The notes under the pieces: generated by a model
Databases searched by the model: none
What the model saw: the letters and a program-made list of their open reading frames with translations, nothing else
Told to the model about the DNA's origin: nothing
From: Chondrosia reniformis
Taxonomy: Eukaryota; Porifera; Demospongiae; Chondrillida; Chondrillidae
Direction of reading: 5' to 3'
DNA: 64,000 nucleotides
NCBI GenBank assembly: GCA_947172415.1
Contig: OX359193.1
Coordinates: 5,388,501 to 5,452,500, forward strand
Shown here: one piece after another, positions 3,063 to 49,236 of the stretch
How positions within the stretch are numbered: position 1 is the stretch's first letter
How the letters are laid out: each line of letters opens with the position of its first letter
Made by a program: the position numbers and the translations under genes

Positions 3063-3229
3063 CGTTAAAAGAAGCATGTATTGACATGATGTTACTTTAT
3101 GTCTGAAAATAATTATTTGTAAGAACTATGTTAATCCGGATCCGGAAGATATCGATGGGTATAGGAGGTAGTCTACAGGGTTGGTTCGTTTTATGCACAT
3201 CGACAACTAACGCATAACGCAGGCGGGAG

Positions 3230-5104
3230 ATGGAAGACTTGTTGAAGCAGTCGGAGCTGTTTGCTAACTTACTTTGTGGCTTAATCGAGAGCGCTGAACA
3301 CATCCCGGTCTTTTCAAATTATGAAGAAGAATTTCTGGTAACTGTATTTCCAGTGAACAGCAAATTAGAAGATGTACAATTCCTCCTGAAGCAAACTAAC
3401 AATTCTACACTTACTTTACCCGATTCTACGATTAATAAACCTTTTGCAATTGTTTCAAAGTACCCAGAGAAATTATCACTAAACAACCTTAGTCTTGGAG
3501 ACTTGACGTATGACAGCATTTCGTCTTCACCAGAAGTAGAAAAGAAGAGGACAGCGAGAGAAGAATCTCCGTTGAAAGTTGACTCGCTTCCAGAGAAACA
3601 GTTTTCTTTGTGTGAAAGGCCCTTCTTCCAGTGTGATAATCAGGAGATAGTCAGTCGTTTCACTTCAAGCCTTCTTCCAGATGTCAAATACCAGCCAGTG
3701 TCAGTTCGCGAATCGAGACATTTCCTCACTCTTTACTCACTGGCAGTTCGCCGAGGAGAGAAGCGTTTACTCCCGTATCTTTGCATCATATCAGCAAAGG
3801 ATAAATCCGCTGAAAACGACGTCGGAGATACTGTAAATACCGAAGTTAGTATGTTAGCGTGTAATGCAGAAGGTAGTGGACGGTTGAGGATGACTGCTGT
3901 AAAGTGTCTATCTTCTCGCAAGCCCGCACAGTTCTTTGTGGAACGGGACAGTACGAGCTTACACTGCGAAGCAAGGTATCAAGGAGGTCCTGGAATTAGT
4001 GGTGAAGATGGTGGAACAGAGATTGTTGTTGAATTCGAGTGGACATCTCCAAAATCACTCCTTGCACTTCCATCTCATTCAGCCAGAGCAAATTTGAAAG
4101 TTAGAACCGTTTTTGGTAGTTCTCTTTCGCTGGGGTTGCAGATATTTGATGAGCTAGTACATCTTTCAAAGTGTCTGTCTGGCACAGTCAGCAATGAAGC
4201 TACAGCAGGGGGTGAAGAGAGCAGTTTTTCAGTTAGCCAGTGTGTTCAGAACTATAGGGAGTTGATTACGTCAACCATGCTGAGTGAGTCTGACATGAAG
4301 AGGAAGACCCACTCCAGTGATCCAGTCCCTGCCTTTACTCCACGGGTGTGTACCGATTTCCTTGAGCACCTTTGGACAATAGTTTGTGGTTTTAGTAAGC
4401 CCACCATAAGACAAGCTCTGAGAGAAGTGTTTGCCCTGATTTTTAGTGGCGAGTTGCAACCCTACTTATCCCGTTCTAATACGACCTCTTTGGCTTGTAT
4501 TATTAGGAAGATTTTACTAGGACAGGAAAGAATGCACACAGCTGAGCTAGAGGTGAAGGAAGCTTTAGAAGATACCAACCTTCTGGACCATTTAGCAGAA
4601 GTGGGCATTTTCAAGATTAGCCAAGATCTGAAGCATCTATTCCAGACGTACAAGTTATTGCCCAAAGTCAATATTCAATCGATGATAGAGCTCATGTCAT
4701 CCAAAGCAGAGTGCTTTTCTATTCTTGTTCAGTATTACAAGATCCTTGAACTACTTCTGTCAGTAGACTTTTATTTCCATTTGCCAGAGGTTCATTTAGA
4801 ACCCTTGGTGTCTGCCCTCATAAAGTACTACAGTGATAAAGCAACCCTCTCAAAACACGAGCAGTCACCTGTATTTGTGCTGGCCATAAATGCTCATTCT
4901 TCTGCCATGGAAGCAGCGTGCTCCCACTGTAGCAAACTTCAGCTGGCCTCCTGGAAGGTGACTAACATAGGAAAGAATTCAAAGTTATTTATAATGTCAT
5001 CTTTGCCGCTTCTCTATGGAGAGAATTTTAATATCAATCTGGAAAACACAGATGCTGAAGAATTGGGTCACATTTATGAAGTTGAATCTCAAGTTATTTC
5101 TTAG
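3230..5104 (+). CDS. ZWILCH: ZWILCH kinetochore protein (RZZ complex), single exon
   Basis: A 624-codon ORF with no introns, starting at the first ATG after an upstream region without in-frame coding. Recognised as Zwilch from several conserved blocks: VEFEWTSPKSLLALP followed by ANLKV (residues about 265-290), DFLEHLWTIV and SGELQPYL (about 375-415), LLDHLAEVGIFK (about 460) and YYKILELLL with ALIKYY (about 500-540). Length is close to the usual roughly 590 residues. In animals Zwilch joins ROD and ZW10 in the RZZ complex, which builds the fibrous corona of unattached kinetochores and recruits dynein and Mad1/Mad2 for the spindle checkpoint. The absence of introns contrasts with the neighbouring multi-exon genes. 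It begins only about 170 bases after the pseudogene ahead of it. Family assignment is from remembered conserved blocks, not from a search. Confidence 0.88.
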   Translation: MEDLLKQSELFANLLCGLIESAEHIPVFSNYEEEFLVTVFPVNSKLEDVQFLLKQTNNSTLTLPDSTINKPFAIVSKYPEKLSLNNLSLGDLTYDSISSSPEVEKKRTAREESPLKVDSLPEKQFSLCERPFFQCDNQEIVSRFTSSLLPDVKYQPVSVRESRHFLTLYSLAVRRGEKRLLPYLCIISAKDKSAENDVGDTVNTEVSMLACNAEGSGRLRMTAVKCLSSRKPAQFFVERDSTSLHCEARYQGGPGISGEDGGTEIVVEFEWTSPKSLLALPSHSARANLKVRTVFGSSLSLGLQIFDELVHLSKCLSGTVSNEATAGGEESSFSVSQCVQNYRELITSTMLSESDMKRKTHSSDPVPAFTPRVCTDFLEHLWTIVCGFSKPTIRQALREVFALIFSGELQPYLSRSNTTSLACIIRKILLGQERMHTAELEVKEALEDTNLLDHLAEVGIFKISQDLKHLFQTYKLLPKVNIQSMIELMSSKAECFSILVQYYKILELLLSVDFYFHLPEVHLEPLVSALIKYYSDKATLSKHEQSPVFVLAINAHSSAMEAACSHCSKLQLASWKVTNIGKNSKLFIMSSLPLLYGENFNINLENTDAEELGHIYEVESQVIS

Positions 5105-6838
5105 TCCATTGCATGTCATTTTCATGTAACTTGAATAATATATGTATATTCATGGACCCAAGAGTGTAATTCTATCATTCCTGTGTTAATTTGAACATTT
5201 AAGTTTACTTGATGCATGCACACACTTCAATGTAATTCAATCAATTTACAGAGGGTGAGAGTAGGGTAAAATGAAGGAGGGGTGAAATCTCAGACACAGA
5301 CAACAAAGTTTGTTCATTGATATGGTTAATTAGTTTATTGTCAGGCAAGAGTTTTGCATGATAGAAGAGAGTACTAGTATCTCAAAATTAACTTAAGGAT
5401 TATTGATCAGAATTCTACCTAAGTAGATTGCTTGAGAGCAGCTAATACAGATTTTTCTAATGGTCAGGCATAATATCTCCCAGTTATCATACTGCAATTA
5501 AATATGGCACGGTGAAATTTACAAAATGCTCCATATATCTATAAGCACGCGCATGACCGAACCCCTTTCTCCTCCAATAGTCGTAACGTCAAAAAGAGTT
5601 TCCTCGTTTCCGTTTCCTTTTTTAGGGCCGACCCGTTTTATATGGATATAGAGATACGCCCATCAGTCTGAAGAAGAGTTGTTCTTCCATTTCTCTATAA
5701 TCTATGGTTCTTCCATAAGGCATGGACAAGTACAAATCAGATCGAATACCTAGAAAATATAGTTCGCATTCTTCAGATGTTCAAACTGGATTAGGACACA
5801 AACGTTAGTCCCATTTTCAACTTTTGTCACCCACTGTATTGCCTCCTTCCTAAACATTACAGTAACTGTAAATCTTACTTGTGCAAGCTATAGCTATAGC
5901 AGGTCTAAAAAAGGAAACGGAAACGAGGAAACTCTGAATTTTCTTTTTGACGTTACGACTATTGGAGGAGAAAGGGGTTCAGTCATACACGTGCTTGTTA
6001 GGACAACCAGCTGGGAGGTTGGCCAGGCTAACAAGCTCCCCATAACCTGGCCCTCCTTAATTATTGACTCAAAGCTTAGTGGTGTATGGTATTTGGGAGT
6101 TTCATACCTTACAACGGTTTTAAGGGACACTGCATCGAAAAAAAAGAATCGAGTTTAAATGAATTATTAAATATAGATAATCTTTGTCAATGAGATGAAC
6201 CATCTCAAAGATAGGTTTGGCACACTATCAGTTAGAAGAAATCCCTATGCTACTGAGGTTTTAGACCTTGAGCACAAGGGCTGAAGCTTTAATTTAAACC
6301 ACAAAATGACCTTTTGAACAAGTTATAATATTGGCTATAACCCCAGTAGCCAAGCCATTTATTGTCCCGTCAGTCTGTCTCCACTGCCTGGACAGTTTGT
6401 ATAGCTCTGAACACAAATGTAATTAATATACATACTTAGTACCTGTTATTGAAAGGTCTTGGTTGTTTTAAAATGACCCTGACAACTATTTGCTTGCTGA
6501 TCGTATGCGGTTCATGGACAAAGCATATAATTAATATTTTGAGTTATGGAGGTGTGATGTGCTATAACTACTAGTCCTCCCACAGTGTATGATGGTTGTC
6601 TACTTTTCCACATACACTGTTCATAATAAACATTTAATTTATTGGTATTCATTGCAGTATGTATGTATATATACATATATACTTGGTATATATATATATA
6701 CCTAATTTTAGATACATATACATGTACCTTGTAAATACAACTGTATTATGCCATAACTGCATAAATTTATACATGTATGTACACCAATTTGTAATGTGCT
6801 ATATACAAATTATGTAGTTAATGATTTTATTTGTTCAG
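5105..6838. other. Spacer with transposon debris; possible first exon of next gene not located
   Basis: Contains the inverted-repeat element at 5541-5995 and, at about 6190-6260, a diverged piece related to the repeat at 7980-8045 (shared GTTAGAAGAAATCC motif). The downstream death-domain gene needs an upstream exon that leaves one base over; I could not identify it with confidence here. Confidence 0.4.
5541..5995. mobile_element. Non-autonomous inverted-repeat transposon (MITE-like)
   Basis: Arms at 5541-5625 and 5905-5995 are inverted copies sharing CTCCAATAGTCGTAACGTC and GGAAACGGAAACGAGGAAAC, with a 12-base insertion in the right arm. The internal part of about 280 bases has no credible ORF. 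Target-site duplication not resolved. Confidence 0.75.
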
Positions 6839-9800
6839 GGTTAGCATCACCACCACCACCAATAACCCTTGAGAACCTGATTGACTATACACCAGCCATT
6901 ACTCCTAAATGGTACTGCTTGGGAATTAAACTTGGTCAAAGTAATAAAGTAAAAGAACTATGTAATCGTCAAGAAGAAGAACAGAGAAAATGCTGTCAAT
7001 TGCTGGATAGTTGGATCAATGCCGGTGATGGTTTGAAATGGGAAACCTTACTAGAAGCACTCTCATCAGATGGAGTAGCGCTTCATAATGTAGCCAGAAA
7101 TATTAATGAGGTTAGAATGAACAGTTTAATTTTGCTGTGTCAATGTTAATTGAGCACAATAGAACACTGAAGCTCTTTAGCCTATTTATTAGACACTGCC
7201 ATGAATAAAACTTTTTCTGTGGAAAATATTTCTGGATTTATTAGATAGACGGGGGACTACCAATTCCATTTCTAAAAGGGTAGCCACATAGCCAATTAGG
7301 CAGACATTGCATGTGTTCATTTTAAATATTATACACCAATTTAGTTAACTTATACTGTGTACATATGATTATCAGAACATTATCCTTTCTTGAATGTATT
7401 TTATCTTGTAAATCTTTGTCTTGTTTTAATCATTATTTAATGCTCTAATACTAAAATAATATCTGCATATCAAAGCACCAGTGATTACACTCATTTTGTG
7501 ACATATTATATACAAATAATAATATGAATCTAAACAAAACCATTGTAACAACATTACACTTAAAATGAAATATCCCAAAAACATACAGTACGATTTGGAT
7601 TGGTTGTCTGGACCAGTAATCAATAATATAGGTAATCCCTTCTAGTTATTTCATTTTGGTATGAACGAATGGATGGATAGTCCCAATTGCCTGCAATCTT
7701 CTTGCTTACATCAAGCTAATTAGATATATAGCGGATACCTTCCTGGTGATGCAAAAATTCCCACACCGTTCTCCATCTTTGTAAAGGTTCATCTTTCGAC
7801 TTTGGGAGCGTCTAGAGACGCAGTTTTTTTGACTCTTCTTTCTGCCAAACGTTTCGACTCTGGGGGTCTTCTTCAGTGACTGATGTTGGTCTTCAAGGTG
7901 TCTTCATTTATAGGCATCTTTTCCCGCCATTTTTCGATTACATAATCAGAAAAAACTGCATCTCTAGACGCTCCCAAAGTCGAAAGATGAACCTTTACAA
8001 AGATAAGTTCGATGCAGTTAGAAGAAATCCTTATTCCATTACCATTCTCCATCTTACATTGTCTGAGTATGCTGAGGCTATATGCATGCAATTGTGATAA
8101 TTATTTGCAATTTACTTTCAACATAAGGAAACCAGTAATTAGAGTTAAATATATACTCATGGGGCTGCCACCCTGCACATGAATTACTTATACCTCTAAC
8201 TGTTGTAATCTTTGCAATTCTGCACTTTTAAGTATATATCCTCAAAATTGAAAAAAAAACAATAGGAAAAAGGAAAGAAATTTAGTTCATTTAAGAATCC
8301 TAAACACCACCATTTGCAAATACATTATATATTATGAAGAGTGTAGCAACCAGAAGAAATAATTCAAAGCAAGGGCTACTGCAATAGGCATTTTATGTGC
8401 AAGCCACCCATAGTTGTTACTGTCTGAGTAATAATTCAACTAGTGGCTGTCAATGTAACATTCAAACTGTACTGGTTAAAAATTTTAACCAAGTAGGTGT
8501 ATATGTCAAAGGCTAGAGTCATATTGATTATAGAGTATATGCTCTTTAGCCAGAAATTTTGTTAGGAAGAATATTTGGTGTATGCATGGCATATGATAAG
8601 TTGGGCAAGCCTTAAGTCATAGCAATAAGAATACCTGGTGTTCCATTTCTAAAGAAAAAGTAAATTGGCCGAAGCAATTGAATTGTTTTCAAAAGACAAT
8701 GTGTTAAATTGAAAGACCAACAGTGGCACAGAAGGTTTAAGGATGTCTTCTTCTCGTTAAAAAGATAGATCTTCATATTTCTAAGGGTAACTCTTTTCCC
8801 AACCGATATTGAATAAGAATCAATAATTCAAATTAGTGCTGTTGTCTAATGTTTCGGCCACAATTCTGGGACCTTCTTCAGAGTACAGTAACCCAGTTCA
8901 TTATCAATTGGGAAGAGTTAGAAAATTAATATGATTCATAACAGCCGACCAAGATCATCACAAGGCTCAGTGTCTAAAACACACAGCTGTTGATGTTGAA
9001 CTCTCAAGTTGTATAGGAATTATTTAATAATGATGGCATCATGCTATAAACAGTTTTGCCATTGGAAATGTGGATTATCTTGAAACTACCAATCTGCCAA
9101 ATTTAATTCTCTTCCAATATTTGTGGCCATACTGTAATGACAAGAAATATTAATGCCACACTATAATTACAATTACAATAGTGTAGCTTGTCATGAGCTA
9201 GGCAGTATCTATTGATTTGACTTTTTGCATTAGTTATACACATCAGAAAATGTACTCCAAACGTTATTAATTGTGTTCTTAATCTTTTCATTTTCCAGAA
9301 ATACAATATTGGCTATTCAATCCCTCAAGGTTAGTTATCAGTTTGATTAACTTGATTAACTGTAATAGTGGAAACTGGTTAACAAATACTCCCGCCGAAT
9401 TTATCACATAACAGTAATGCCCAAAGTTGATCTAAAGCTTCAATTGATGCTGCTCTTACAGCAACACTTAAAACATATGTGTTATTAATATTGGTAGGCT
9501 ATTTGGTGTAAGTTACAGGTTTGATAAGTAATTTGTCAGTGAAACAGCCAGGCGGAGCAGAATTGTGAAGTGAAGTGTGTGTATACGTTTTCTGGACAAA
9601 TGAATTCGTTCAATGGATCCGGAATCTTAGGCAGATTAGTAATGTTGGTGGATTATTGAGGTGACACTGTACTGTTATTACAAGTTTAGCATAATATAAA
9701 ATGCTTCTTAAGACAGCTCTATATAGAGTTGAAAATTAATCATTATGTATAGTCTATGTTCTTCATGAAAGTTTCAGCATGAAAAATGTCAATGTAAAAT

Positions 9801-12800
9801 GATAGAATAGTACTTTTATTTCTTCTTTGATTTCATATTATAGCTCACAGGTTAAATCTATAGCTATTCTGTGTGTGTTAGAAGTACATATTCATGTTAA
9901 ACGGTAGCTTTTTGTTTCGAGTTTTGTTTATGTACAAATAGAGCAATAATTTGTCAAAGCTTGTTCAATGTAAGCCAGTGTCCACTGTATATACTTTGTT
10001 GGCATATTTTACAATTGTAAAATCCTCTACATAACGAAACAAAAACCCTTTTATTTACTAATAAAGTATTTTCCTGATATAGAGTAACTTTAAATGTAAA
10101 CTGCTAAGAGATGAATTAATCTGTCATCATTTTAATTTATTTCTAAATACGTACATGCAGATCAAACTACAACCTCCAGTGCTACACTGACAAATAGACA
10201 AGCATCCAGCACTTTAAAAGAGAAATTGGAGATGATTAAAGAAAATAAACTTGGGCTAGTCTGGGCAGATCAAGAAGACAAAGAAAAAAAAATAAAACGT
10301 TGCGTGGATGACTACCTTATGTGTCTTCCAGCAAGTCACGATGACCTAGAAATTCAGGAATTTGATAAAGAGATTGAAAGCCTATACGAAAAAGAATCCT
10401 TGCTAACTGCAAATGTGTATGCCCATGCGAAAAAAAAAATCATTGACCTCCAAAATGCCTCTTCACCGCTTGTAAAGGAAGATACCCATGGTCAACAGAA
10501 AGAGGAAATTCTCTTCTCCAAAGAGAACATATATCATTCACTCATATGCTGTAAAGCTCTGGAGAGTAAAGAAGATGTTAACACCTATTTTAAAATGAAT
10601 TGCACTCAACATAGGTTTGGAAAACTATCAAAGTCTCATGGTCAAAATAGCATTCTTATTGCAAAGAAGGAGACAAGTGTATATATTGCTGCCTTTAGAA
10701 TACCAGAGAAAGCTATGGGTTGTTTTGATTCAGGTGAATTACTGTAGTAACATTTTATGCATTTTATGCTATAATGAGTTTAGGGTATATATGGCATGTA
10801 CCTACGTACGTATGTATGTATGTAAAAGGAATTTTATAATTGAGTAGAACTTCACTCTTTACTACAGATATCATTATGTACTCAGGTAGGGCAAATAGTT
10901 CATGGTTCATGCTCGGTAGTAATATATGTGACCATGCATATCCATATATGTATATACACCAAATTGCTCTATTATATGTGCTTGCATTTGTTTAATAGCC
11001 TTTGAGGTCTGTGATACCTTTCTTCAAGATATCCCCACCAATATGTTTGTCAAGTTACTAAGTGATGATCAACAGCTTGTGCTGACAGGTAGAGATATTT
11101 ATACACACATACACACACACCTAAAGTTATTCATTGTTAATAACATATTACACATTGAAGTACTGTTATATACAAAACTTCTGAAAGAATAAGACTTCAG
11201 TCCTATATTTGATCAGAGCAAACGTTTGATTCTGCATTGTAAACTTAAATGATATACGTATGCACGCAAATTCAATAATCTGTACCTTACATGTCATACA
11301 ATCATCATTAGTAACAAATTTATTACTAAAGTATATAATAAATGAGAAGACTTTAACTTTGGCATAGTAAATTTCCCCTATTTAGAATACTTATACCCAG
11401 CCTATGCATGGTGTCTTTATTTCACACTAATGAGGTATTCCAGAATATGTAGTGACTTCACTAATTTTCAGGTTTGCAGTTATGTACCCTATTTGACCGA
11501 ATAGAAGCCCTGGCTTCTATTTTGTTCCAGTCATTTTTGATCCGGCTTCAATTCGAGCCTGGCTTCCATTCGAACCAGGCTTCTATATAATATTTGTTAA
11601 TTAAAATTTGCATTGGTACAGCTTCTCCACAGTGCACTCCATGGTCTCCAACTTGAAGAAGACATTGTAGGACTTTCGCTTTGACATCGTTACTGCAGTG
11701 GAAACTGGTCAGACGTTGCGACCAGTTTGCACCTCGACCAGCATGTCGATTGGAGAGATTTGGCCGCTATTCGAGACCGGCTTCTATTTAAAAATAGCCC
11801 AGCTGACCCTGTAAATGAGACCTGGCCTTTATTTGAGCCCGGCCTCTATACAGATAAATACAGTAGTAGGCTTATTAAGCAGGGTTACAAACACTTTAAC
11901 CCTTTAAAACTTTCATATCCTGTCAGCCACCTCCAAAGAAATGTTACTATTATAAGACCTAAGGGTAGACCTATGTATATATGTACATGTGTCTTGTAAT
12001 ACATGTGCATTAGCCTATACAAGTCCGATTACTATTTACCCCAACCATTAAATTTTATTTGGCCTACATTCCTTTCATAAAATTTGATTTCATGCATCAT
12101 GTGACTTACGTAGTTAAAACCTCTCACTTTCTGGCTCCAAAATTGTGTATATAAGATTTAGCATAGAGAGTCAAGGATTCACAGAAGACCAAGAAAAAGA
12201 CAAAAATTGCCAGGGTCACTGATGAAGGGTGAAATTCCCAGAAACAGCTGTGGCCCAGTGCATGGAGCAGAAGAAGAAAAGGAGACTCCTGCATGTATCT
12301 TCATCCAAAGCTCTCCAGGTTTAGTTCCCTATAGGCTTTTTAATTCACTACAAATTGGTATGATAGAATGGTATATTAGGTTATTCATGTATGGTATCTC
12401 TTATTTATTTGTAGGATATTCCTTTGGTGGATCACTTGCTCAAGCTGTTTTTGCTAGAATGCTTAAAGGCAACTTGTTTAATCAGGACTTCCTGATCAGC
12501 AATGTTTGCTGTATAACCTTTGGGGAGCCACTTTCCTGTAACTCTTTTTTAGCTGAAGAAATGAGGAAACGTCAAAATCTCATGTCTTGCTTTCATCAAA
12601 TTTACTTAGAGTATGATCTTCACACAATGCAAGATGTGGACCTCCTCTCTCTAGTAAGAACAATATATGAATGCATAATTTTACAATGTAATTTTTGCAC
12701 AATTTATATGTGTAAACTGAGTATACGTAGCTTTTGTATACCTGTATTTTATGACAGGCAAATGATCACGGGAAGGTGTCGAACAGTATGTGTTACATAG

Positions 12801-15800
12801 CTAATACACCTCGCTATGAATCAATGAGCACAAGCCCACTATGGACAGCAATGCGCAAAACAGAATTCTTGGAGATGTTGTTCTGTAGAAAGTATTGTGA
12901 ATTTTTAAGAGAACCTGCAAATGTATGACTTATACATTAAGAGGAGGTATTATATGAGGTTTAAATATGTATGTACTCCTCTACATTTATACAGGTTCAT
13001 TTGGAAGATTATTTCCATGAAATATTTGCAACCTACATTGATCAACCACCAGCTTACATGCTTCCTACAATGAAAGAACAAGGCATTCCTCCCCTAGACC
13101 TTCAGCCTGCTGTGATGTCTGTCGAAATTCATCGCTATGATAAAGAGCTCTGCATTATTGTCAGTGGAAGAAATCTTTGGTTCTCCCGAAAGCTGATTAT
13201 GCCTAGTCTGGAGATTTCTCAGGACCTCTGCATTCATGAGAATACTGGCCTACAATTTCAGCTTCAGGCTGAAATGGAAATATCTGTTGAGAATCATCCT
13301 GGAAAAATTCAGCTCAAACTGGAGAATACCCTTTTTGATACCCTGGAAGTGACTGTGCCAGTTGAAATCAAAGTAGGGGCCTATATAGACTATTCTTTTT
13401 TAACCACTTCACTAAAACCAAAATAGATGGTTAAGATCTCTCTATGTTGTCTCTCTTAGATTTTTGACATGACAGTACGTCAAGTTCAATTAGCCCAACT
13501 CTCTCCAAAAGATCTAACTCAGATTGCCATTCTCTCAGCTGCTTTGGAAAAGCGCAACACCTTGCAATTGATTGAAGGAAGTTGCCCTTCTGTCTTTTCA
13601 AAAAGATATATAGCTGTAAAGGGATTCCTAGAAATAGCGTTAGATGTTGTCCCAATTGAAAGTCTATCCTATGCCATTAATAGTCTTTCTGAATCAGGAC
13701 TAACAGGGCCTGAATATTCATATTGCCTGCAACTTTTGGATTCATGTGGGAGTCAGATACATGATGTACACTCTCATAGCACACCTGTTCGGGTCTATGT
13801 ACCAGTATTCCATAGCAAGGATCTGAATGTTGAGAGTGATGACGAATTTGGCGGACACCCCATGGCTTACCATTATCAAGTTTCTCTACCACCATATGCC
13901 TGGAGAAGGGAGCGTCAGTCTGGCCACAGAGTAAGATTTACTGATCATCCTCGAGTCGGAGTTTCAAAATTGTCTGGAAGAGTTATCAAAAGTCTTTTTG
14001 CTAGTCATCACAAGCTGAATCCCCTTACCTGCCTAGAAGAAGCTAGAGAAAAGTTGAATAGGATAGAATCCAGCTCTGAAAAAAATAAAGGTGTTAACAT
14101 TGCAGTTCTCAAATGTGCTGAATCTGTTAGACAAGATGCAAGTAATTTTGCCACTTTGGTCGATGGGTTCATGGGAACACATATGCAGGTTCCTCTTGTT
14201 CAATCTGAAGAAGACACAGCTAAAGCTCTGGAGTCAGGTGTATCAGCAGGTGTTTGGTACCTGGTTGGATTGAACTTTGGAGACCTTCAGGAGATAGTAA
14301 AAGATAAGCAAATTGTAATTGATGTTACTGAATACCTTGGAAGGTTTTTACAAAGTTACCATGACCAGAAAATGGAAGGCTGGATGTCAACTTACGTTGG
14401 TAAGGTGCAGTTTATGGCCAATGCCATGTCCAACACAGTAAGCTGCAACACTAGCTATGTCAGCTACTCACTTGAACGCCAACTAAAAGAACACTGCACA
14501 ATACAATCCCATACTCCAGTAAAGGATATTGTCAATGAATGGAGCCGCTTCTTCAAAGAGAAGATTCTTTCTTTTGTTGGTGAAGATCACAGGGAAATTA
14601 TTGCTCGCTGGATCAAGTGGATGCTTGCCATTCATGATCTTCGAGAAGCACTTGCCAGTCAAACCACTCTTGGAGTTGTAGGATTGATGAACAGTGGAAA
14701 GTCTAGTCTCATGAACAAGTTGTTTGGGCGAAAAGTAGGTTTATAGAAATTTGACTGGTTCATTTTTGGCATTGACAGTTGTATTAATCCTATTGGTATA
14801 CCTTCACCTTTAGATTCCATCTGGTACTTTGGAATCCAAGAGGACTACTGTTCCTTTTTTGTATAATCTTGGACCAGAAGTAGAGGACATGGATGTAGTC
14901 GACTTTCCTGGAGTGGATGACTGCGACAGTGTTATTCGAGGACTATGCCAAATCCTATTTGGACTGGCCCAGCTGGTCATTTATGTGGTTGATTACAGGT
15001 TTGTAAATTGGGGTAGTGGTATGTTTATTCCAATTACAGTTGATAGTTATATGAATTTCTTTATCTGTTTGTCTATCCTATGTCATACATAGACCTAGGA
15101 AAATGGTGTTTTAGTAGAAACTGCTTACCCCAAAATCGGTTAACACAAAATACTGGTCAGAACAAACAAATGTCTTAACAAATAACCGATGTGTATACAA
15201 AAGACTACTGCAACTATATTTATACATATACATTGCAAATTTAACTCACCTGTGTCCTATACAAATATCTAATTTGAAATGACCAAAAATAGAATACAGT
15301 ACTTTCAGAAGCTGTATAATATCTTTCTTTGATATTAATGTTAAGTACTCTGCTGTGTATAGTTAGTTATGCTATGATTGTATATAGCATCTGTATCTTT
15401 GACATACGTATTTGGTGGAGTACCCCCTTTCAACATTATCAATTTTATCTAGGAAAGCTCATTCCGAGGTTTCAATAAAATGGATGAAACACATAGCCAA
15501 CACAAAAGCTCCAACATTACTGTGCTTATCATTTGGTGACCAACTCTTTGCAGAGAAAATGAAAGGACCTACAGAATACCCAAATGAAGAAGAGATACTG
15601 CAGATTGTTAAAGGCTATCAAAAGGTACAGTTTTATTTTGAAGAAGTCAGATTTCGTACCTAATTAGGTACACTTTTATATTTTCATCTCTCACTGTCCT
15701 GGCAAACATGTGATTGTTTTTCTATATCTTATAAAAGCCCAAGGTTAGTGTTTAGTTGGTTGACAGTTAGCTTGCATTTCGGCTAAATAGAACTCTTGGT

Positions 15801-16485
15801 GTGTGCAAATAATAGAACTATATCTGTAAATCCCTTTATTTAAGCGGAACCAAAAGTTAGCGAAACTGGATTTTACCCCTACATAGCGGAATTTAATATT
15901 AGCGACTTACGAAATACATGGAAGTTTTGTTAGTTAATTACAGTACTCTATTCAGTAGTAATACTATATTTAGCGAACTCTAATTTTAGTAGTAAATGTC
16001 AAATCACTAATATAGCTAAATTTAAAAGCACGCCAATAATAAGGGATTTACAGTATATACTATTTCCATTTGTTATGGTATGTGTTGTTTCCTATGATCC
16101 CATTTATGTAAACTGTGGTCTGCATATATATCCAAAAGATAAACATACTCCCACCTAATTGACCCATGACAATAGACATGCACGAGTCATAGACCTCTTA
16201 GTGTGAATCAGATATATTTGAATTTATATACTGTAGGATTTTGAGGAGAAATATCGAATGCACATTGGCAAGGATCCCCCTGAATGTATGATCTGCAGTA
16301 TTAACACTCAAAATGACTCTGTCCTTTGACTACCTGCTGCTCAAAAGAAACTTGAAGAAGCTAACATTAAATCAACCAAGGATATCCTAGAGTGGATAGT
16401 AAATACTTTGAACAGAAGAGGACAGGTTCCTCTAGCAAATAAGATGAAGGAATTTATGTCCCATCACTCCAAAGCTGACAACTGA
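6839..16485 (+). CDS. Death domain - class 3 lipase - dynamin-like GTPase fusion protein
   Basis: Reconstructed exons: 6839-7110, 9299-9329, 10161-10733, 10999-11088, 12415-12653, 12758-12922, 12995-13372, 13460-14734, 14814-14998, 15453-15624, 16237-16329; every junction is phase-compatible with GT/AG borders. The start exon upstream of 6839 is unresolved. Domains in order: a death domain (WYCLGIKLGQSNKVKEL ... LLDSWI ... WETLLEAL) in the first exon; a class 3 lipase-like alpha/beta hydrolase whose nucleophile elbow TGYSFGGSLAQ is made by joining 11088 to 12415; a beta-rich segment; about 390 residues of mostly helical sequence; then a GTPase with P-loop GLMNSGKSS, switch I SGTLESKRTT and DFPG. 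The G4 motif is non-standard (SFGD). It terminates at TGA 16327-16329, or by readthrough at 16483-16485. Roles are inferred from the domains: death-fold recruitment, lipid cleavage and membrane-associated GTP hydrolysis, perhaps in immunity or cell death. An alternative is two genes split at the stop at 13424-13426. Confidence 0.75.
7786..8006. mobile_element. Short TIR element with internal hammerhead-like core
   Basis: Left and right ends are inverted copies (GGTTCATCTTTCGACTTTGG ... its reverse complement), with the further shared motif GCGTCTAGAGACGCAG. The same element occurs at 50286-50440. It lies in the intron between 7110 and 9299 of the death-domain gene. Confidence 0.75.
7851..7876 (-). 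ncRNA. Hammerhead ribozyme-like core motif
   Basis: On the minus strand: CTGAAGA, a short stem-loop region (GACC...GAGTC), then GAAAC. This matches the CUGANGA ... GAAA core of hammerhead ribozymes, which are known in Penelope-like and other small retroelements. Stems I and III were not verified. Confidence 0.4.
8851..8881 (-). ncRNA. Hammerhead ribozyme-like core motif
   Basis: On the minus strand: CTGAAGA, a roughly 18-base stem II region, then CGAAAC. Same architecture as the motif at 7851-7876 but otherwise different sequence. Intronic in the death-domain gene. Confidence 0.35.
11490..11860. repeat. Degenerate repeats of a GGCTTCTATTcGAGCC motif
   Basis: The phrase CCTGGCTTCTATTyGAGCC and close variants recur at least six times at both ends of the stretch, around a unique core. 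This looks like a small transposon with subterminal repeats. The open frame at 11727-11999 is a by-product. Located in the intron between 11088 and 12415. Confidence 0.55.
12150..12345 (+). repeat. Dispersed repeat family A, copy 1
   Basis: Shares the phrases GGGTCACTGATGAAGGGTG, CCCAGAAACAGCT, GACTCCTGCAT/GACTCCTGTAT and TTAGTTCCCTATAGGCTTTT with copies near 30110-30395 and 60937-61088, all on the plus strand. It sits in the intron just before the exon carrying the lipase nucleophile. Confidence 0.65.
15824..16053. mobile_element. MITE in the last intron of the GTPase gene
   Basis: Terminal inverted repeats CTGTAAATCCCTTTATT (15824-15840) and AATAATAAGGGATTTACAG (16035-16053). The subterminal region repeats short phrases such as AGCGGAA and TAGCGA. 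No coding capacity. Confidence 0.7.
16327..16485 (+). promoter_or_regulatory. UGA-CUA stop context with 51-codon open extension (candidate translational readthrough)
   Basis: The last GTPase exon reads ...AAT GAC TCT GTC CTT TGA CTA CCT..., then continues in frame for 51 codons to the TGA at 16483-16485. The extension has coding character: charged, amphipathic (AAQKKLEEANIKSTKDILEW). UGA followed by CUA is the established strong readthrough context in animals. The alternative is a simple nonsense mutation or assembly error. Confidence 0.5.
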
Positions 16486-16964
16486 GAAATTACTTCTTGT
16501 GTGTATATCTGCACATCTTTTGGACTATATTTATAAAATTTACTTTGAATTTACATAATGTCATGAAATAGTAGGCACAAAACAATATATATATTTAACT
16601 GTAGTTTCTATGAATCACTTCCACTAACTTTCTTTGAGTTAATCAATAAGCCTTCAAATAGTTCCCTGAATTTTACAATAATAGCATAGACTATCTATAC
16701 TACATAGTATATGATAATAGTACACACAAGTTATTTCATATACATATAGGCATACAAAATGAACCAGAGATGTGCAACTCATGTATTTAGTGACATCCAC
16801 TGAGTTGCATGCATCTTATATAGATATAACTGCCTTTGTTTGAATATATAAATGAACACATCCCAATTCATCATATGCATGAACAGTATATACTAGTTTT
16901 AAAATCATGATGGACCGGAATTAAGATTGTTATTTAAAGTAGCCGCACCCGTTACCTTGTAATA

Positions 16965-16965
<1 letters not shown>

Positions 16966-17000
<35 letters not shown>

Positions 17001-27958: not shown

Positions 27959-28243
27959 ACGTATATATATGAAGTATATATAAATGTATCACAATAGCTA
28001 TCCATGTACAGTACGTATATACTAAAGTAACTTCCTTATAAAGATGCAACACTATGATGCAATGCATTCACATCCAATTATTAGCTTATGTAGATATTGT
28101 GGTTATATAGCTGATGTAAGCATACCTTTATATGAAACCTAACATGTACGGTACTTTCATTAGGACAGCCCCTACTTATAATGGGTGTACACTGGAATTC
28201 ATATCACTCGAATATTCTTTTAGTTAGAACATTGACTTTTATC

Positions 28244-29623
28244 ATGGCCACCAATTTTAGTGGATTAGAAATCGTTTGTGTTGACTGTGATATTATGAAA
28301 GACCAGATAGACACTGTTCATCTTAATTGTCAGGCACATTATATCTGTAAAAACTGTCTTCTCAACAGGTACAGATCTAAAAATGGAGACCCTGAGAACT
28401 GTTTATTTTGCTCTACAGTTACCTCAGTGAACAGAATCTCCATCTATGTGGATAATTCTAATCTTTGGATTGAAGGCAAGAAGGCTTATGCCAGGGTGAA
28501 GGGTCTATCTACCCCAGAAGACCCCAGGGCTCGGTTTGACATTGGTAAGGTTGGTGAAGTAGTGGCTGCAGGCAGGGAGAACCATGTAGATGGAAGGACC
28601 CTTTATGGTTCAAGGCCACCTGAGGCAGACACAGTCTGGAAGAAAATTGAGAAGCACAAATGGCTAGTTGATATAAGTGATAAGAGCTTTCACACAGGTA
28701 AAGAGAAACAAGTTGATGCTAAACTGATTACTGATTTGGTGTCATTGGTTACTAAAAGTGCACCAGGAGTTGTAATTATTGTCAGTGGTGACGCAGATTA
28801 CATACCTCCTATAGAAAAAGCTCTAGAGTGTAAGTGGCAGGTAGAGGTTTGGGCATGGAAACAGGCAATATCTTCAGCCATTAAAAATCATCCAAGCTTA
28901 AACAAGGGTCTACAGGTTCACTATTTGGATGAAAACTTGGATGACATAATGTTTATTAATGATGAATTAAATCCCTCAAAAGCCACCAAGAAGCAACTAG
29001 AGTCAGCCATTATTTTCAACATCAAGCTAGATGGCAGTGCTATGAAGCAGAAAACCTATTGGAAAGTTAAACATGACCTTCAAGAGCTTACTCGTTGGCC
29101 AATTGTGTATTACACTTTACCTTCACAGAAAGATGCATTTGTAGTAGAGGTTTTGGCTATGTTCATGACAGTGAATTCAGAGAGCTACATGTACAACATT
29201 GATAAAGTGCTGAGAGATCTCAAATCAAAATGGAAGAAAACCCTTCACTTAAGCGGTGACCCCCTTCGATTTGACAAGTACTATACTCACCTAGAGGATA
29301 AAGGTGCTTTACACTTTATTACTGATATCTTTCCAAGATGCAAGAATCATGATTCAGAGCAATATGATAATATGAGTGAGATGAGTGATACATCATCCAT
29401 TAAAAGCCGGTCTTCCTCAAAGAGCACAGGTAGAGACTTCAATAGCAAAGATTTGTACAAAACTACTCTCTGTGTACATTTTAATCGCAGCTCGTGTTCC
29501 CGTGGTGACAGTTGCAGATATGCCCATGGATACAAAGATCCAAAAAGCTACTGCACAGTTTGTGAAAAGCCTGGTCATGTGTCTGGATCACCTGGGCAAC
29601 CCTGTGCTTCAAATTATAATTAA
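28244..29623 (+). CDS. RING-like / NYN (PIN-fold) putative RNase / CCCH zinc-finger protein
   Basis: Single-exon ORF. I choose the ATG at 28244 (MATNFSGLEIV) because it directly precedes the first domain; an in-frame ATG at 28181 would add 21 unremarkable residues. Domains: a RING-like Cys/His cluster (CVDCD ... HYICKNC ... CLFC, residues about 10-60); an NYN/LabA-type PIN-fold domain (IYVDNSNLWIEG, VDAKLITDL, VIIVSGDADYIPPI) with the expected acidic residues D-N, D and D-x-D; a low-complexity Ser-rich linker; a C-x7-C-x5-C-x3-H zinc finger (LCVHFNRSSCSRGDSCRYAH); and a terminal Cys pair (YCTVC). NYN domains are metal-dependent nucleases related to Regnase/N4BP1, and CCCH fingers bind RNA, so a regulated RNA-cleaving protein is likely, possibly with E3 ligase activity. 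The RING is short and may be only a zinc-binding fold. No close named homologue is recognised. Confidence 0.82.
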   Translation: MATNFSGLEIVCVDCDIMKDQIDTVHLNCQAHYICKNCLLNRYRSKNGDPENCLFCSTVTSVNRISIYVDNSNLWIEGKKAYARVKGLSTPEDPRARFDIGKVGEVVAAGRENHVDGRTLYGSRPPEADTVWKKIEKHKWLVDISDKSFHTGKEKQVDAKLITDLVSLVTKSAPGVVIIVSGDADYIPPIEKALECKWQVEVWAWKQAISSAIKNHPSLNKGLQVHYLDENLDDIMFINDELNPSKATKKQLESAIIFNIKLDGSAMKQKTYWKVKHDLQELTRWPIVYYTLPSQKDAFVVEVLAMFMTVNSESYMYNIDKVLRDLKSKWKKTLHLSGDPLRFDKYYTHLEDKGALHFITDIFPRCKNHDSEQYDNMSEMSDTSSIKSRSSSKSTGRDFNSKDLYKTTLCVHFNRSSCSRGDSCRYAHGYKDPKSYCTVCEKPGHVSGSPGQPCASNYN

Positions 29624-32893: not shown

Positions 32894-33672
32894 ATTTGTT
32901 TGTTTACCGTTTCCAAGGTGTTCAGGATGGACTGTCTAAACATAGAGAGTCCATAGTTTCTAGCATCATGTATACAATAATTGATGAACCCTCGGTCACA
33001 GGGGTAATAAAATCATGTAGAGAGCTCGAGAAAACGTATTGTTTTACAATAAAATCATGATATATGTTGTATTAAAAGGTAATTAATGTTTAATATTGCA
33101 TAAAATTACAGTATAGAAATTCTGGAGGTATATAGTCTAAGGGCTTAAGTAAATAACACCTCGCAGTGATAGCGTCCATGCAGGGAATGGTTTTGCCTTC
33201 TAAATGTACCAGTAAATGTAACAATTTTGCTTCATGTAGAAACTTAGCCTACTTCCTAGTTAGGAAGAAATTATGAATAATGACAATTTAGCTAAAGATT
33301 ATTGATTTATGTGTAAAAATTGAATACAGTACACTGAATAGGTGTTTTTCTACCATCCTTTTTGGTATTCAAAACATTCATCTTATTGTAATGACCATGG
33401 CTTCATGATCAATTTCAGTCTTCAAAATCATTGACTATTCAACTGATACATGAGTGTTTGGAATGCTTTCAGTGTAGTTTATAATAAGCAAAACAAATAT
33501 TATATTACGTGAAGATAGGTACGTATACATATGTATATACATATTGGTGTGCAGATGTGTACAATTATCTATAGTATATAAATATATTCACGTTTAACAC
33601 ATTCTTTAATATATAGCTATGTATATATATATGCTGTGATACACATAGTGTGAGATATTTTATAGTGCAGTC
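32894..33672. other. Intergenic region upstream of the first large membrane protein gene
   Basis: From about 33198 the sequence is duplicated at 42184 onward, so it is the conserved 5' flank of both paralogues. TA-rich stretches, no specific promoter element called. Confidence 0.5.
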
Positions 33673-36600
33673 ATGACTATTTTGCCTCAGGTCCTGTTGC
33701 TACTTGTTTTAACCAGCTCCTGTTCCAAAGCTTGCAAGTGTCAGTGCAGAACCTTCTGGGTGACTCCATCTGCTGAACATTGTATATCTATCAACAGCAC
33801 TCCATGTGATACCATTGATGGATACCTCAAACAGAAGAGCAACATCTTTTCAACCTCAAATGCTACCTGGAACTTTCTGGAAGGTACACATCACTTCCTA
33901 CTTAAAAAAAGTCTTTACATTAAACAAGCAAATAATATTAATCTTTATGGAACTGGTCTTGGTTCACAGCTGGTTAACATTACCCTAAGAATTGAAAATT
34001 GCTCTAATGTCAACATCAGCAAATTAAATATATCTCAATCCACAGTAGCTCTGTATAGTGTGCATGACCTTAGTATTAGTACTACCACATTTCAAAGGTC
34101 AGATTTAACCCTGGGCATCCCCAGTGGATCCTGCAAAGTAAAACATTGCAATTTTAGAGATGGAAAGCTTCAGATGTTACAGTATTTGAAATATAACTAC
34201 AATGCATTTTCCCTGACATTGTACTTGCTTATTTATAATTCTACATTTGACTATAATATTGAATCACAACTGGAAATCATTTCTACTTCAATGGTGACAT
34301 ACAATCACACAGAAATAATTGTTGAAAACTGTTCATTAGCAGACACCAGTATTACTACTACCACCAGACATTTAAAAGGTTCTTTATCAATCAAATTATC
34401 CAACTGTCAATTCACCAGTAACAACATTGTTTTCAATTTATTACCTCTTGGAAGTTCAAGAGATATTAAACTAGACATTGCCATTAATAATTGCAAATTC
34501 AAATCAGCAGATGGTAAAGCTGTATTAATAGCCTTCCTAATTTATTACACAGTTGACCACAGTATCTACTTCACACCTAACAACCAACAAAGCTACCAAA
34601 TACCAAATATAACTGTGAACAATACAACTTTTCAAGGAGCAGCAGTACTAGTTAGAAACTTTGCTAATGTGAACCAGAAATCTACATATCCTATGCTGAC
34701 CTTTAACAACTGCACTTTTAGCTCTTATGGGAAAAACAGAATAAAAGAGACCTATATTGGTGCCCACATAACTGAATATGTGCTTGTTTTGTTAAATCTA
34801 TGGTTCCCCGTACTTTTATCAGATGTCAAGTTCACGAATAACGTAGGTGGAGCAATTCACATGTCAATGAGCAGCATTCAATCAAGAGGATACAATGAAA
34901 TATCTGACAATGTATACCAAAAGGGTGGCGATGTGGAATGTAATGGGATAGTGCGTATTTCAGGTCATGGCTCTAGAATCCTTTTGGAGGAAAACTCAGT
35001 TTTTAGTATCACTAACAACAGCGGAAGTAATTATGCATCCCTACTCTATGTTCCACTACAAACTGTCCATGGACACTTTGAAACTTTAGTAACGAATTTA
35101 ATAGGCATTCAATGGGATAACAAATGTTTCATTCAATTAATAAAAGATGGAGAATTCTTAAATAGAAAAGATCTTAATGATTTCAAAGGATCACTTGTCA
35201 TTCATAATACAGAGAGGGGATCACAAAGATCTTTCAACATATTCAATATGCACCTATTTAACTGCCATCTACACACACAAAATGGTGACTATGATCCAAT
35301 AACTATCGAAGAGCTTAAAACTATTATAGATGTAGATTCATGGAATGGAAACAGTGTAGCATCAGTGCCACACATATGTCTTCGTGATGATAAGAATCCA
35401 GATGATCAGTCACTTTGGGATTGTGGTGAGAGCAGCAATTTAACATTATCCCCAGGACAGAATGTCATTCTAAATGTCACCATTCTTAAGGACATAAATC
35501 AGACATACTATAAGAAATTCAAGTTAAAGGCATTCCTTATTAATCAAAAGGTTAAAAAATATACAATAAGTGAAAATTTTTATGTCATTGAAATACCCAA
35601 CAGAGAGATAACGAGGATGACTGAAATCACTTTAAGTATTGATCTGGGTAAACGTAGCCATACTTGCTATGACAGAACCTATGTACCACCGTTCTCCACT
35701 CACCACGTATATGTATTACAATGCCCTATGGGTTTTAAGGGAGATAAGACAACAATGAAGTGTGATTGTTCAACATTCTTAAAGAGAATGGGATTTATGT
35801 GTTTATCGACTGATCAGACAAGTGTCTTCTTCAATAATTCACTTACTTACCGCTGGATTGATTGGCAACCTGATAAAGTACGTATAAATACATATTGCTA
35901 TTACAACTTTTGCAATAGGAAATTGAGATATGGGGGCATAATTATAAAAACTGCCAAACTTGAATCAGCAATTTTCCCACAATGTAAGAAAGAAAATAAT
36001 CGTGTTGGATTTGGTTGTAGTGAGTGTCCAAAAGATTACAGTTCAGTTTTTGGTGGTTACAAGTGCACCAAATGTAAAGGACCTTGGTTTCTCTTTTTCA
36101 TTCCTTTATATGCATCTTTTGGATTACTACTAATAGCCTCACTTTTCCTTTTTAATTTGACCATTGTACAAGGAACCATCAATGGAATCAGCCTTTATGC
36201 CAACATTATGTATTTATATGAAGGCCATTTCTACTTTGATAAAGGAAGGAACTTTCAAAGAATAATATCATTCCTTAATTTTGGAAGTGGATTTGAATCT
36301 TGCTTTTATGATGGAATGGACGAATTTGCCAAAACTATATTACAGTATTTCTTTCCATTTTATCTCCTTCTTCTTGTGGTTCTCATTATTATTGGAGCTC
36401 ACAAGTTTAATTTCAGAATATTCAAAGTGGAGTTCATAGCTAAAAGGGCAGTACCAGTACTGGCAACATTGATGGTGCTAACTTACACAAGTCTCCTTGG
36501 GATAGTTAGAACTTCCCTTGGACGTAACGCTCTTTACACTCTTTATCCAAATGATCAATTTGATATGACACTTGTATGGTTGTATCAACCTAAACTCACA

Positions 36601-37479
36601 TATTTCAAAGGAAAACACTTGGTTTTGGGACTCTTAGCTATAGCTGTTACTATTTTCTACCTCATTCCACTGACTGTAGTCACACTCTTTGGAGACCTTT
36701 TGAGGAGGAATTGCATTCGTAGTTTGTGGTTTAGTCACTTTCTTGATGTATTCCATGGAGCCTATCGCTGGCCACTTGGCTTCTGGTTGGGACTGAGGTT
36801 ACTGATGAGGGTAATTTTTCTAGTTTTACAAGTTGCAACAAAGTTTAATACAGTTTACACTATTGTATTTATCAGTTTCTGCATCTTCTTCATTCTGGAG
36901 ATCCTTATTATAAAACCTTTTCACAAGAGATTTTATGTAAGTAGTTTTTCTAAACCTCAACGGAAGGGCTTGAAAAGTAAACTTGCAGGAACAGTTGAAT
37001 GGATGGTCAACCCAGTGAATAGTGATAGTTTATTTATCCTCAATATTATCATGTTTACTTCCATTCGTAACACTATCAGCTCTTTCCACTCCAGTGATCA
37101 AAATGGTGTGGATTACCGAGAAGTTTTCCTTATCTTCTTAATAGTAGGTGCCATCATTCAAATGATTGTAATTGTTGCCTTTCATGGATGGATGTATTTC
37201 CCTCTTCCTAAATGTGTCAAGGAAAGATGGCTCAAATGCAAACAACTCTTCAGTCGCCACACTGCCAAGCAAAACGACCAGGAACCATCCACACATTCAG
37301 CTGAACACTATATTGACCAGTTTCCATTTCATCACATCCACCATCTTGTAGCAGGTCTACCAGATGAGAATGAAAGCAGTACTAGTGACGAAGAGGAGAC
37401 ATCTTTATCTGCAGAAGATAGAAAAGGGATCAGTGTAGAATCTGCTGAAGGTCTAACTGACCAACTACTCCAAAAATGA
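33673..37479 (+). CDS. Large surface protein: beta-helix-like ectodomain, Cys-rich linker, about eight TM segments (paralogue 1)
   Basis: Intact 1,268-codon single-exon ORF. A signal peptide (MTILPQVLLLLVLTSSC) is followed by about 650 residues of short repeating beta strands with many N-x-S/T sites and patterns such as NNCTFSSYG and VNISKLNISQS, typical of right-handed beta-helix folds. Then comes a Cys-rich module (CSECPKDYSSVFGGYKCTKC, about residue 795) and a C-terminal half with about eight hydrophobic helices starting at LFFIPLYASFGLLL. Conserved family phrases include FESCFYDGMDEFAKT, KRAVPVLATLMVLTYTSLLG and HGAYRWPLGFWLGLRLLMR. The cytoplasmic tail is acidic and Ser-rich (ENESSTSDEEETSLS). 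This belongs to a large uncharacterised invertebrate family; function is unknown, receptor or adhesion being plausible. Nearly identical to the gene at 42728. Confidence 0.85.
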   Translation: MTILPQVLLLLVLTSSCSKACKCQCRTFWVTPSAEHCISINSTPCDTIDGYLKQKSNIFSTSNATWNFLEGTHHFLLKKSLYIKQANNINLYGTGLGSQLVNITLRIENCSNVNISKLNISQSTVALYSVHDLSISTTTFQRSDLTLGIPSGSCKVKHCNFRDGKLQMLQYLKYNYNAFSLTLYLLIYNSTFDYNIESQLEIISTSMVTYNHTEIIVENCSLADTSITTTTRHLKGSLSIKLSNCQFTSNNIVFNLLPLGSSRDIKLDIAINNCKFKSADGKAVLIAFLIYYTVDHSIYFTPNNQQSYQIPNITVNNTTFQGAAVLVRNFANVNQKSTYPMLTFNNCTFSSYGKNRIKETYIGAHITEYVLVLLNLWFPVLLSDVKFTNNVGGAIHMSMSSIQSRGYNEISDNVYQKGGDVECNGIVRISGHGSRILLEENSVFSITNNSGSNYASLLYVPLQTVHGHFETLVTNLIGIQWDNKCFIQLIKDGEFLNRKDLNDFKGSLVIHNTERGSQRSFNIFNMHLFNCHLHTQNGDYDPITIEELKTIIDVDSWNGNSVASVPHICLRDDKNPDDQSLWDCGESSNLTLSPGQNVILNVTILKDINQTYYKKFKLKAFLINQKVKKYTISENFYVIEIPNREITRMTEITLSIDLGKRSHTCYDRTYVPPFSTHHVYVLQCPMGFKGDKTTMKCDCSTFLKRMGFMCLSTDQTSVFFNNSLTYRWIDWQPDKVRINTYCYYNFCNRKLRYGGIIIKTAKLESAIFPQCKKENNRVGFGCSECPKDYSSVFGGYKCTKCKGPWFLFFIPLYASFGLLLIASLFLFNLTIVQGTINGISLYANIMYLYEGHFYFDKGRNFQRIISFLNFGSGFESCFYDGMDEFAKTILQYFFPFYLLLLVVLIIIGAHKFNFRIFKVEFIAKRAVPVLATLMVLTYTSLLGIVRTSLGRNALYTLYPNDQFDMTLVWLYQPKLTYFKGKHLVLGLLAIAVTIFYLIPLTVVTLFGDLLRRNCIRSLWFSHFLDVFHGAYRWPLGFWLGLRLLMRVIFLVLQVATKFNTVYTIVFISFCIFFILEILIIKPFHKRFYVSSFSKPQRKGLKSKLAGTVEWMVNPVNSDSLFILNIIMFTSIRNTISSFHSSDQNGVDYREVFLIFLIVGAIIQMIVIVAFHGWMYFPLPKCVKERWLKCKQLFSRHTAKQNDQEPSTHSAEHYIDQFPFHHIHHLVAGLPDENESSTSDEEETSLSAEDRKGISVESAEGLTDQLLQK

Positions 37480-49037: not shown

Positions 49038-49236
49038 GGCGTAGGGGGATGTTACCTTGGGCGTAGGGGGATGTTACCTTGGGCGTAGGGGGATGTTAGC
49101 TTGAGTGTAGGGGGATGTTACCTTGGGCGTAGGGGGATGTTACCTTGGGCGTAGGGGAATGTTAGCTTGGGCGTAGGGGGATGTTAGCTTGGGCGTAGGG
49201 GAATGTTACCTTGGGCGTAGGGGAATGTTACCTTGG
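49038..49236. repeat. 22-bp minisatellite, 9 units
   Basis: Nine head-to-tail copies of about 22 bases (GGGCGTAGGGGGATGTTACC plus TT), with variants TTAGCTT and GGGGAATG. Absent at the matching position (about 39865) of duplication unit 1, so it arose after duplication. Confidence 0.92.

Follow-up and report, generated by a model that had tools for sequence, protein, structure and literature searches.

In seed plants, the proteins EDS1, PAD4 and SAG101 contain a class-3-lipase-like domain that, in sections of PMC6377607, is described as a non-catalytic scaffold promoting EP-EP domain contacts in plant immunity; EDS1 complexes bind small molecules produced by TIR enzymes, according to parts of PMC10952240. 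Animals possess modular immune proteins in which a Death-like domain is combined with NTPase switches and other modules, as recounted in sections of PMC8195603. Here we describe a gene of the kidney sponge Chondrosia reniformis that resembles both groups in part. It lies within a stretch of 64,000 nucleotides (hereafter the window), which a search of the sponge's own genome places at chr5 5,388,501-5,452,500; the assembly searched, odChoReni1.1, has 117,379,552 bases in 15 contigs, which correspond to 14 chromosomes and the mitochondrion in the available part of its description (PMC12181767).

The protein encoded by the gene is predicted to run from a Death-like domain and a linker through a class-3-lipase-like domain and two regions of unknown fold to a TRAFAC-type GTPase, an arrangement shared by two paralogues elsewhere in the genome. 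It differs from EDS1, PAD4 and SAG101 in being an animal protein with an N-terminal Death domain and a C-terminal GTPase and in having no EP domain (PF18117) listed, although the class-3-lipase-like domain is common to both and the nearest solved structures for all three sponge copies are those of the plant proteins. In contrast to the animal modular proteins, where the consulted sections of PMC8195603 name alpha/beta-hydrolases together with bacterial Death-like domains and include no animal Death-lipase-GTPase protein, the sponge gene joins all three. The component families are known; what is new is their combination in three conserved copies, of which we found no account in the open-access literature searched, in agreement with the initial annotation of this DNA. 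About evenly poised, in our estimate, is the interpretation that the protein would be a signalling hub of the death-fold kind, in which the lipase domain would provide a scaffold or ligand pocket as in EDS1, the GTPase would act as the gate and the output would be innate-immune or cell-death signalling.

A family of three genes with a common domain order

A search of the whole genome with the window protein returned 45 matches, 25 of them in three loci and the other 20 with the Death part alone. Besides the window, the loci are a chr5 paralogue on the minus strand at 5,348.7-5,365.4 kb, 30 kb from the window gene and inverted with respect to it, and a chr8 paralogue on the plus strand at 7,404.5-7,410.7 kb; all parts are present in the same order at each, with two Death-like stretches in tandem in the chr8 copy. 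The chr5 copy has an open frame, as judged by spliced alignment and inspection, and its intron phases equal those of the window gene at all nine introns that can be compared. Exons 9 and 10 are 185 and 172 nucleotides (nt) long in both chr5 genes, the chr8 gene has an exon 9 of the same 185 nt, and the phase-1 intron that interrupts the nucleophile elbow of the lipase-like domain, between exons 4 and 5, is found in all three genes. When the chr8 protein is aligned to window positions 6001-17000 the score is 1541; two control stretches of 11 kb score 169 and 165, a base-shuffled copy 113 and the opposite strand 110. Of the 20 splice sites that separate the eleven exons, this alignment recovers 14. 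It misses the two borders of the 31-nt exon and those of the intron at 12923-12994, misplaces the exon 3 ends, introduces short false exons into long introns and splits exon 8 once. The order shared among the paralogues, the shared phases and the recovered splice sites together argue for a small gene family rather than a chance join, and the window gene is predicted to be one of three members in Chondrosia reniformis, so that the three domains assigned to one protein by the initial annotation do appear to belong together.

The paralogue models were assembled partly by hand. In the chr5 copy the borders of the start exon, the Death start, the linker start and exon 6 were placed by eye on the pattern of the window gene, and no counterpart of the small exon between Death and linker (31-nt exon 2) was located; the chr8 model is provisional around 7407340-7407596, where one exon border is out of frame. 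An early version of the chr5 protein carried approximately six extra residues before the lipase core, derived from a short false exon, and the version used for the Pfam scan and the motif alignment also lacked one stretch of exon 8. The three-copy lipase profile described below was built with the earlier version, and the search of PDB sequences with the chr5 copy alone was made with the corrected one.

Comparison of the window gene with its chr5 paralogue in ten blocks (exons 2, 4 and 6 being left out) shows the proportion of nonsynonymous differences (pN) to be lower than that of synonymous differences (pS) in all ten. Estimates of dS, the synonymous distance, are 1.9-3.1 in seven blocks and 0.88 in exon 9, and are not computable in two, and the ratio of the nonsynonymous distance to it (dN/dS) is 0.06-0.32 in eight blocks, values that are rough because dS is near saturation. 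The GTPase contains the most conserved part, with 82-89% identity in the P-loop and switch exons (89% in exon 9) and 60% in exon 10, and the Death exon is the least conserved, at 34%. Exon 3 has 46% identity with a dN/dS of ~0.18, dS again being near saturation, and exon 7 has 52% with a dN/dS of ~0.13. We found no relative in prokaryote genomes or viral contigs using tblastn and two short peptide patterns each, a search that is not sensitive, and three pieces of the protein gave no match in PADLOC.

The eleven exons of the window gene, all on the plus strand, have GT/AG borders throughout and form a single frame of 1,156 codons up to a TGA at 16327-16329, with no other stop and with splice sites that are usable throughout, which bears out the proposal of eleven phase-consistent exons. 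Exon 1 (6839-7110), containing the Death-like domain at ~6868-7068, has no start codon; its first base follows a phase-1 acceptor site, so that a start exon should lie upstream, and the chr5 paralogue does have a separate 22-nt start exon in a phase matching exon 1, for which the window offers only two weak candidate counterparts, neither of them fixed. The intron after the Death exon contains, at 7775-8004, a pair of 55-nt inverted repeats, 98% complementary and 120 nt apart, that resemble a small non-autonomous transposon. Exon 2 (9299-9329), a 31-nt linker recognized by its GT/AG borders and phase, is the least certain. The linker continues in exon 3 (10161-10733), together with the N-terminal part of the lipase-like domain; exon 4 (10999-11088) encodes the lipase strand ahead of the nucleophile elbow, ending in QLVLTG, exon 5 (12415-12653) the lipase core, which extends from the GYSFGG elbow, with a candidate Ser codon at 12420-12422, as far as the ITFGEP strand, and exon 6 (12758-12922), with phase-0 borders common to the chr5 paralogue, the end of the domain. 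The region beyond the lipase, exon 7 (12995-13372), is of unknown fold and strand-rich by eye, and no Pfam family exceeds its cut-off there in the window or paralogue proteins scanned. A break in the gene between 13426 and 13469 had been considered initially as a refuting outcome; the interruption is accounted for by a phase-0 intron at 13373-13459, which both paralogues have in the corresponding position. Exon 8 (13460-14734) contains the middle region of unknown fold and the start of the GTPase, with its P-loop GLMNSGKSS at 14681-14707; AlphaFold2 applied to this exon alone and without an alignment gave a mean predicted local distance difference test score of 33.6 and a predicted template modelling score of 0.19, and the model was not used. 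The GTPase continues through exon 9 (14814-14998), its switch region, with RTTVP (G2) and DFPG (G3, 14901-14912), and exon 10 (15453-15624), with a G4-like SFGD at 15529-15540, and the last exon, exon 11 (16237-16329), ends in the in-frame TGA.

Behind this stop, at 16330-16485 on the same strand, are 51 sense codons preceding a second TGA at 16483-16485. Both paralogues keep this C-terminal tail, and tblastn alignments to each run across the stop; identity to the chr5 paralogue is 65%, with a pN of 0.19 and a pS of 0.93 over 46 codons. Since the tail aligns to both paralogues and most of the changes that separate it from the chr5 copy are silent, it probably lost its coding role only recently, and either the window copy would be recently truncated or the stop would be a haplotype variant. 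The gene span initially proposed, 6839-16485, is thus right in including a tail that is present and conserved, but the TGA at 16327 interrupts it and a start exon is expected upstream of it.

The lipase-like domain and its resemblance to EDS1

The Lipase_3 profile (PF01764, cut-off 22 bits) matches all three copies above its cut-off, with 33.3 bits for the window domain as a separate piece (30.7 in the whole protein), 28.0 for the chr5 copy and 30.0 for the chr8 copy, and a six-frame search of the whole genome finds a Lipase_3 match of 28.4 bits at the window lipase core; the lipase piece has no match in NCBIfam. All three copies have a nucleophile elbow of the form G[YF]S[FYL]GGS. The FRGT-type motif, which is the oxyanion motif of active class-3 lipases, is present in none of them, being replaced by AFRIPE, ACRVQS and AFHELD. 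The place of the triad Asp reads Asp, Glu and Asp in the window, chr5 and chr8 copies, respectively, with Glu-Ala-Glu at that position in the chr5 copy, and in the window and chr8 copies the Asp stands shortly past the strand following CF. The catalytic His is not alignable across the three copies and no consistent Ser-Asp-His triad emerges, a statement made at the sequence level only because the stretch past the ITFG strand aligns poorly. A membrane-damaging lipase, which the initial annotation considered as an effector, is therefore weakened as an interpretation by the missing FRGT motif and by a triad that does not align consistently.

A profile of the three lipase domains compared with PDB sequences gave 27 matches at E ≤10: 14 to EDS1, PAD4 or SAG101 (best, EDS1 at E 1.7e-5), eight to Wee1-type kinases (best 0.039), which we take to be chance, and five to a feruloyl esterase and lipases (best 1.3). 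Below E 0.1, EDS1, PAD4 or SAG101 account for 14 of the 15 matches. Searched singly, each of the three copies has EDS1 (8b28_A) as its top PDB match; EDS1 or PAD4 make up all ten rows for the window lipase (E 0.01), and EDS1-type proteins six of seven rows for the chr8 lipase (E 0.14) and 14 of 15 for the chr5 lipase (E 0.062).

Two other lipases of the same sponge and the same Pfam family served as controls. One is a protein with FRGT and GHSLGG motifs that by resemblance we take to be DAGL-like; its search listed 26 lipase or esterase rows first, and EDS1 in none of 37 rows. The other is a 91-residue piece, with a GHSLGA elbow, from a cluster of Lipase_3 exons on one strand at chr3 8.74-8.90 Mb, where the exons that were read have GHSLG[GA] elbows; lipases and esterases occupied 20 of its 25 rows and ranked first, and no EDS1 was listed. 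Since both controls behave unlike the window lipase, the resemblance to EDS1 is specific within the contents of the PDB, and by sequence comparison the lipase domain is nearer to plant EDS1, PAD4 and SAG101 than to catalytic lipases, among solved structures.

GTPase, Death-like domains and neighbouring features

The window GTPase scores 41.9 bits with MMR_HSR1 (cut-off 21.9) and 36.6 with Dynamin_N (cut-off 27) as a separate piece, and 38.9 and 30.6 in the whole protein. Dynamin_N exceeds its cut-off in all three copies, with 27.2 bits for the chr5 copy (by only 0.2 bits) and 35.5 for the chr8 copy, and in each copy MMR_HSR1 is also above its cut-off and scores higher than Dynamin_N. The motifs GLMNSGK[ST], RTTVPF and DFPGVDD are common to the three, the sole change in the P-loop being between S and T, and the GTPase thereby has the GxxxSGK[ST], T and DxPG motifs of the Era/Der-type (TRAFAC) and dynamin families. 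It differs from them in its position at the end of a protein of ~1,200 residues, in the lack of any stalk family listed at E ≤1 by Pfam for the three copies, and at the G4 position, where all three paralogues have [ST]FGD; the usual G4 motif is [NT]KxD. The P-loop exon is followed by 149 residues in the window gene; the chr5 copy has ~196 at this point. Der and Era rank first among PDB sequences, with no dynamin in the 25 rows at E ≤0.1, and 13 NCBIfam models match with Der at the top, all below their cut-offs. Because Der and Era are the top PDB matches and MMR_HSR1 outscores Dynamin_N, we name the domain a predicted TRAFAC-type GTPase with a dynamin-like P-loop and not a dynamin, a shift away from the dynamin/GBP-like assignment of the initial annotation. 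Of the profile matches anticipated there, those of Lipase_3 and Dynamin_N hold, and that of Death falls short in the window copy (20.4 bits against 22.6) but reaches 28.0 in the chr5 paralogue.

Related Death-type exons provide a broader view of the N-terminal domain. Nine of 11 such exons match the Pfam Death family (PF00531, cut-off 22.6 bits) at E ≤0.1, and a profile built from these 11, out of 24 Death-type genome matches, finds THOC1, RIPK1 or FADD in ten of 11 rows of PDB sequences at E 0.0038-0.2 (THOC1 0.0038, RIPK1 0.019-0.038, FADD 0.098-0.2), the last row being unrelated (0.38); the matched THOC1 and RIPK1 chains are death domains. The genome contains at least 142 Death-domain matches (Pfam, E ≤0.001, with 150 of 220 candidates scored). 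Six open reading frames (ORFs) near related Death exons were scanned, of which two encode Kelch repeats, one is weakly phosphorylase-like, one is of the AAA_11 helicase type and two match no family. The Kelch-repeat ORFs each have a Death-like exon of the same type directly 5' of them, on chr11 (L050:211-1736 and L051:2381-3848); on chr12, within L047:645-3848, a Death-like exon is followed ~2 kb later by the ORF with weak PNP_UDP_1 similarity (16.1 bits, cut-off 25.1), and the AAA_11 ORF is ~7 kb from its Death exon. The proximity of Death exons to Kelch and phosphorylase-like ORFs may reflect a mixing of modules analogous to that of the animal immune and apoptotic proteins treated in sections of PMC8195603.

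Several other features of the window were noted. Just upstream of the gene, one long ORF at 3218-5104 encodes Zwilch, a component of the RZZ kinetochore complex (E 1.7e-20). An ORF at 28136-29623 contains an NYN domain and a CCCH zinc finger, both over cut-off. Two tandem ORFs of 1,276 and 1,281 residues, at 33649-37479 and 42704-46549, are near-identical by eye; the first matches no Pfam family, and similar fragments, again judged by eye, are present at 2014-2986. On the minus strand at 47574-49051 there is an RVT_1 fragment (48560-49051, below cut-off) and an adjoining ORF without a Pfam match, and an ORF at 58490-59743 has a trypsin-like protease match of 22.1 bits against a cut-off of 20.6.

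A putative signalling hub and its alternatives

The mechanism that we propose for the family is as follows. The N-terminal death fold would recruit, or be recruited by, other death-fold proteins, and the lipase-type domain, as in EDS1, would serve as a scaffold or as a pocket for small molecules or lipids rather than as a digestive enzyme. A signal could enter through that pocket or through the unknown middle regions, the GTPase, working as a nucleotide switch or assembly motor, would set the time at which the complex assembles, and the signal would leave through death-fold contacts, feeding innate immunity or cell death. Such a role had already been guessed at initially and is still an inference, now with the added arguments that EDS1, PAD4 and SAG101 are the nearest lipase relatives and that at least 142 Death matches are present.

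A number of observations weigh against this proposal. The window Death domain scores 20.4-20.9 bits as a piece and 15.1 in the whole protein, below the cut-off, as does the chr8 copy at 15.9, whose second Death-like domain gives no Pfam match; a Death profile of four sequences gave three PDB rows with no death domain among them (best, RAP30 at E 0.64), and the larger profile has as its top match a protein outside immunity, THO complex subunit 1. The EDS1 matches of single sequences are weak, and the number of EDS1 rows gives no independent support because the rows are close relatives. Intracellular Lipase_3 proteins may be few in the PDB, and EDS1 may be just the closest of the divergent ones among them. 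The EDS1_EP domain is not listed at E ≤1 for any spliced piece of the three copies; a six-frame genome search for it found nothing but is uninformative, its controls having given no match either. In the window and chr8 copies an Asp near the expected place with His residues nearby makes activity possible. Moreover, the paralogue models were guided by the window protein and so are not fully independent, and the window copy has its early stop.

Activity is the core of one alternative, in which the lipase domain would be a working phospholipase or acyl hydrolase, unleashed once the death domain or the GTPase has assembled the protein and producing membrane damage or lipid signals. The elbow and the Lipase_3 scores above cut-off in all three copies would suit such an enzyme, as would the Asp past the post-CF strand in two of them, but with the FRGT-type motif replaced in all three, no alignable catalytic His, Glu-Ala-Glu in the Asp place of the chr5 copy and nearest solved relatives whose lipase-like domain is described as non-catalytic (in sections of PMC6377607), we consider it unlikely. 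Equally improbable, we think, is a non-immune house-keeping protein in which the GTPase and a lipid-binding domain act in trafficking or organelle dynamics and the death fold is an interaction module: Zwilch, the upstream neighbour, is a kinetochore protein, the GTPase holds the most conserved part and the Death profile matches THO complex subunit 1 best among PDB sequences and not an apoptosis protein, yet the gene exists in three copies that diverge strongly outside the GTPase, two of which are neighbours on chr5, and the same type of Death domain recurs at 20 further genome places, which would be unusual for a house-keeping gene.

Other explanations concern the integrity of the window copy rather than its function. 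It might be a pseudogene in decay while the rest of the family is functional, given a TGA 51 codons ahead of the ancestral end, with the tail kept by both paralogues, and the failure to identify a start exon beyond the two weak candidates; we find this rather doubtful, as the 1,156 joined codons contain no other stop and usable splice sites are maintained, the stop follows the conserved G motifs, and a haplotype variant or a tolerated truncation is equally possible. It is highly improbable that the model is an artefact made of exons from two or three neighbouring genes. Introns of 2.2 kb and 1.3 kb, and a model known from genomic sequence alone, would permit such an error, but a domain order that recurs, always on one strand, at each of three loci spread over two chromosomes, the same intron phases and control scores approximately nine times lower or less are contrary to it, and separate genes strung together were rejected on the three-locus order, the shared phases and the control alignments.

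Returning to the signalling hub, the open-access literature searched for EDS1 in animals likewise gave no account of the combination. Whether sponges, or animals generally, own an EDS1-like immune module, in which a non-catalytic lipase-type domain would bind a danger signal, either a small molecule or a lipid, and be coupled within one protein to a death fold and to a switch of the GTPase type, is a broader proposition that we regard as tentative and on present evidence rather doubtful. If true, either a lipase-like hub would be older than the split of plants and animals, or a class-3 lipase would have become an immune hub independently in two lineages. If such a protein, with a death fold and a GTPase attached to an EDS1-like lipase domain, is real in animals, it would suggest that lipase-type domains became signalling hubs in animal immunity too, and the Chondrosia family would offer a compact system, open to testing, in an animal that branched early and is rich in death domains.

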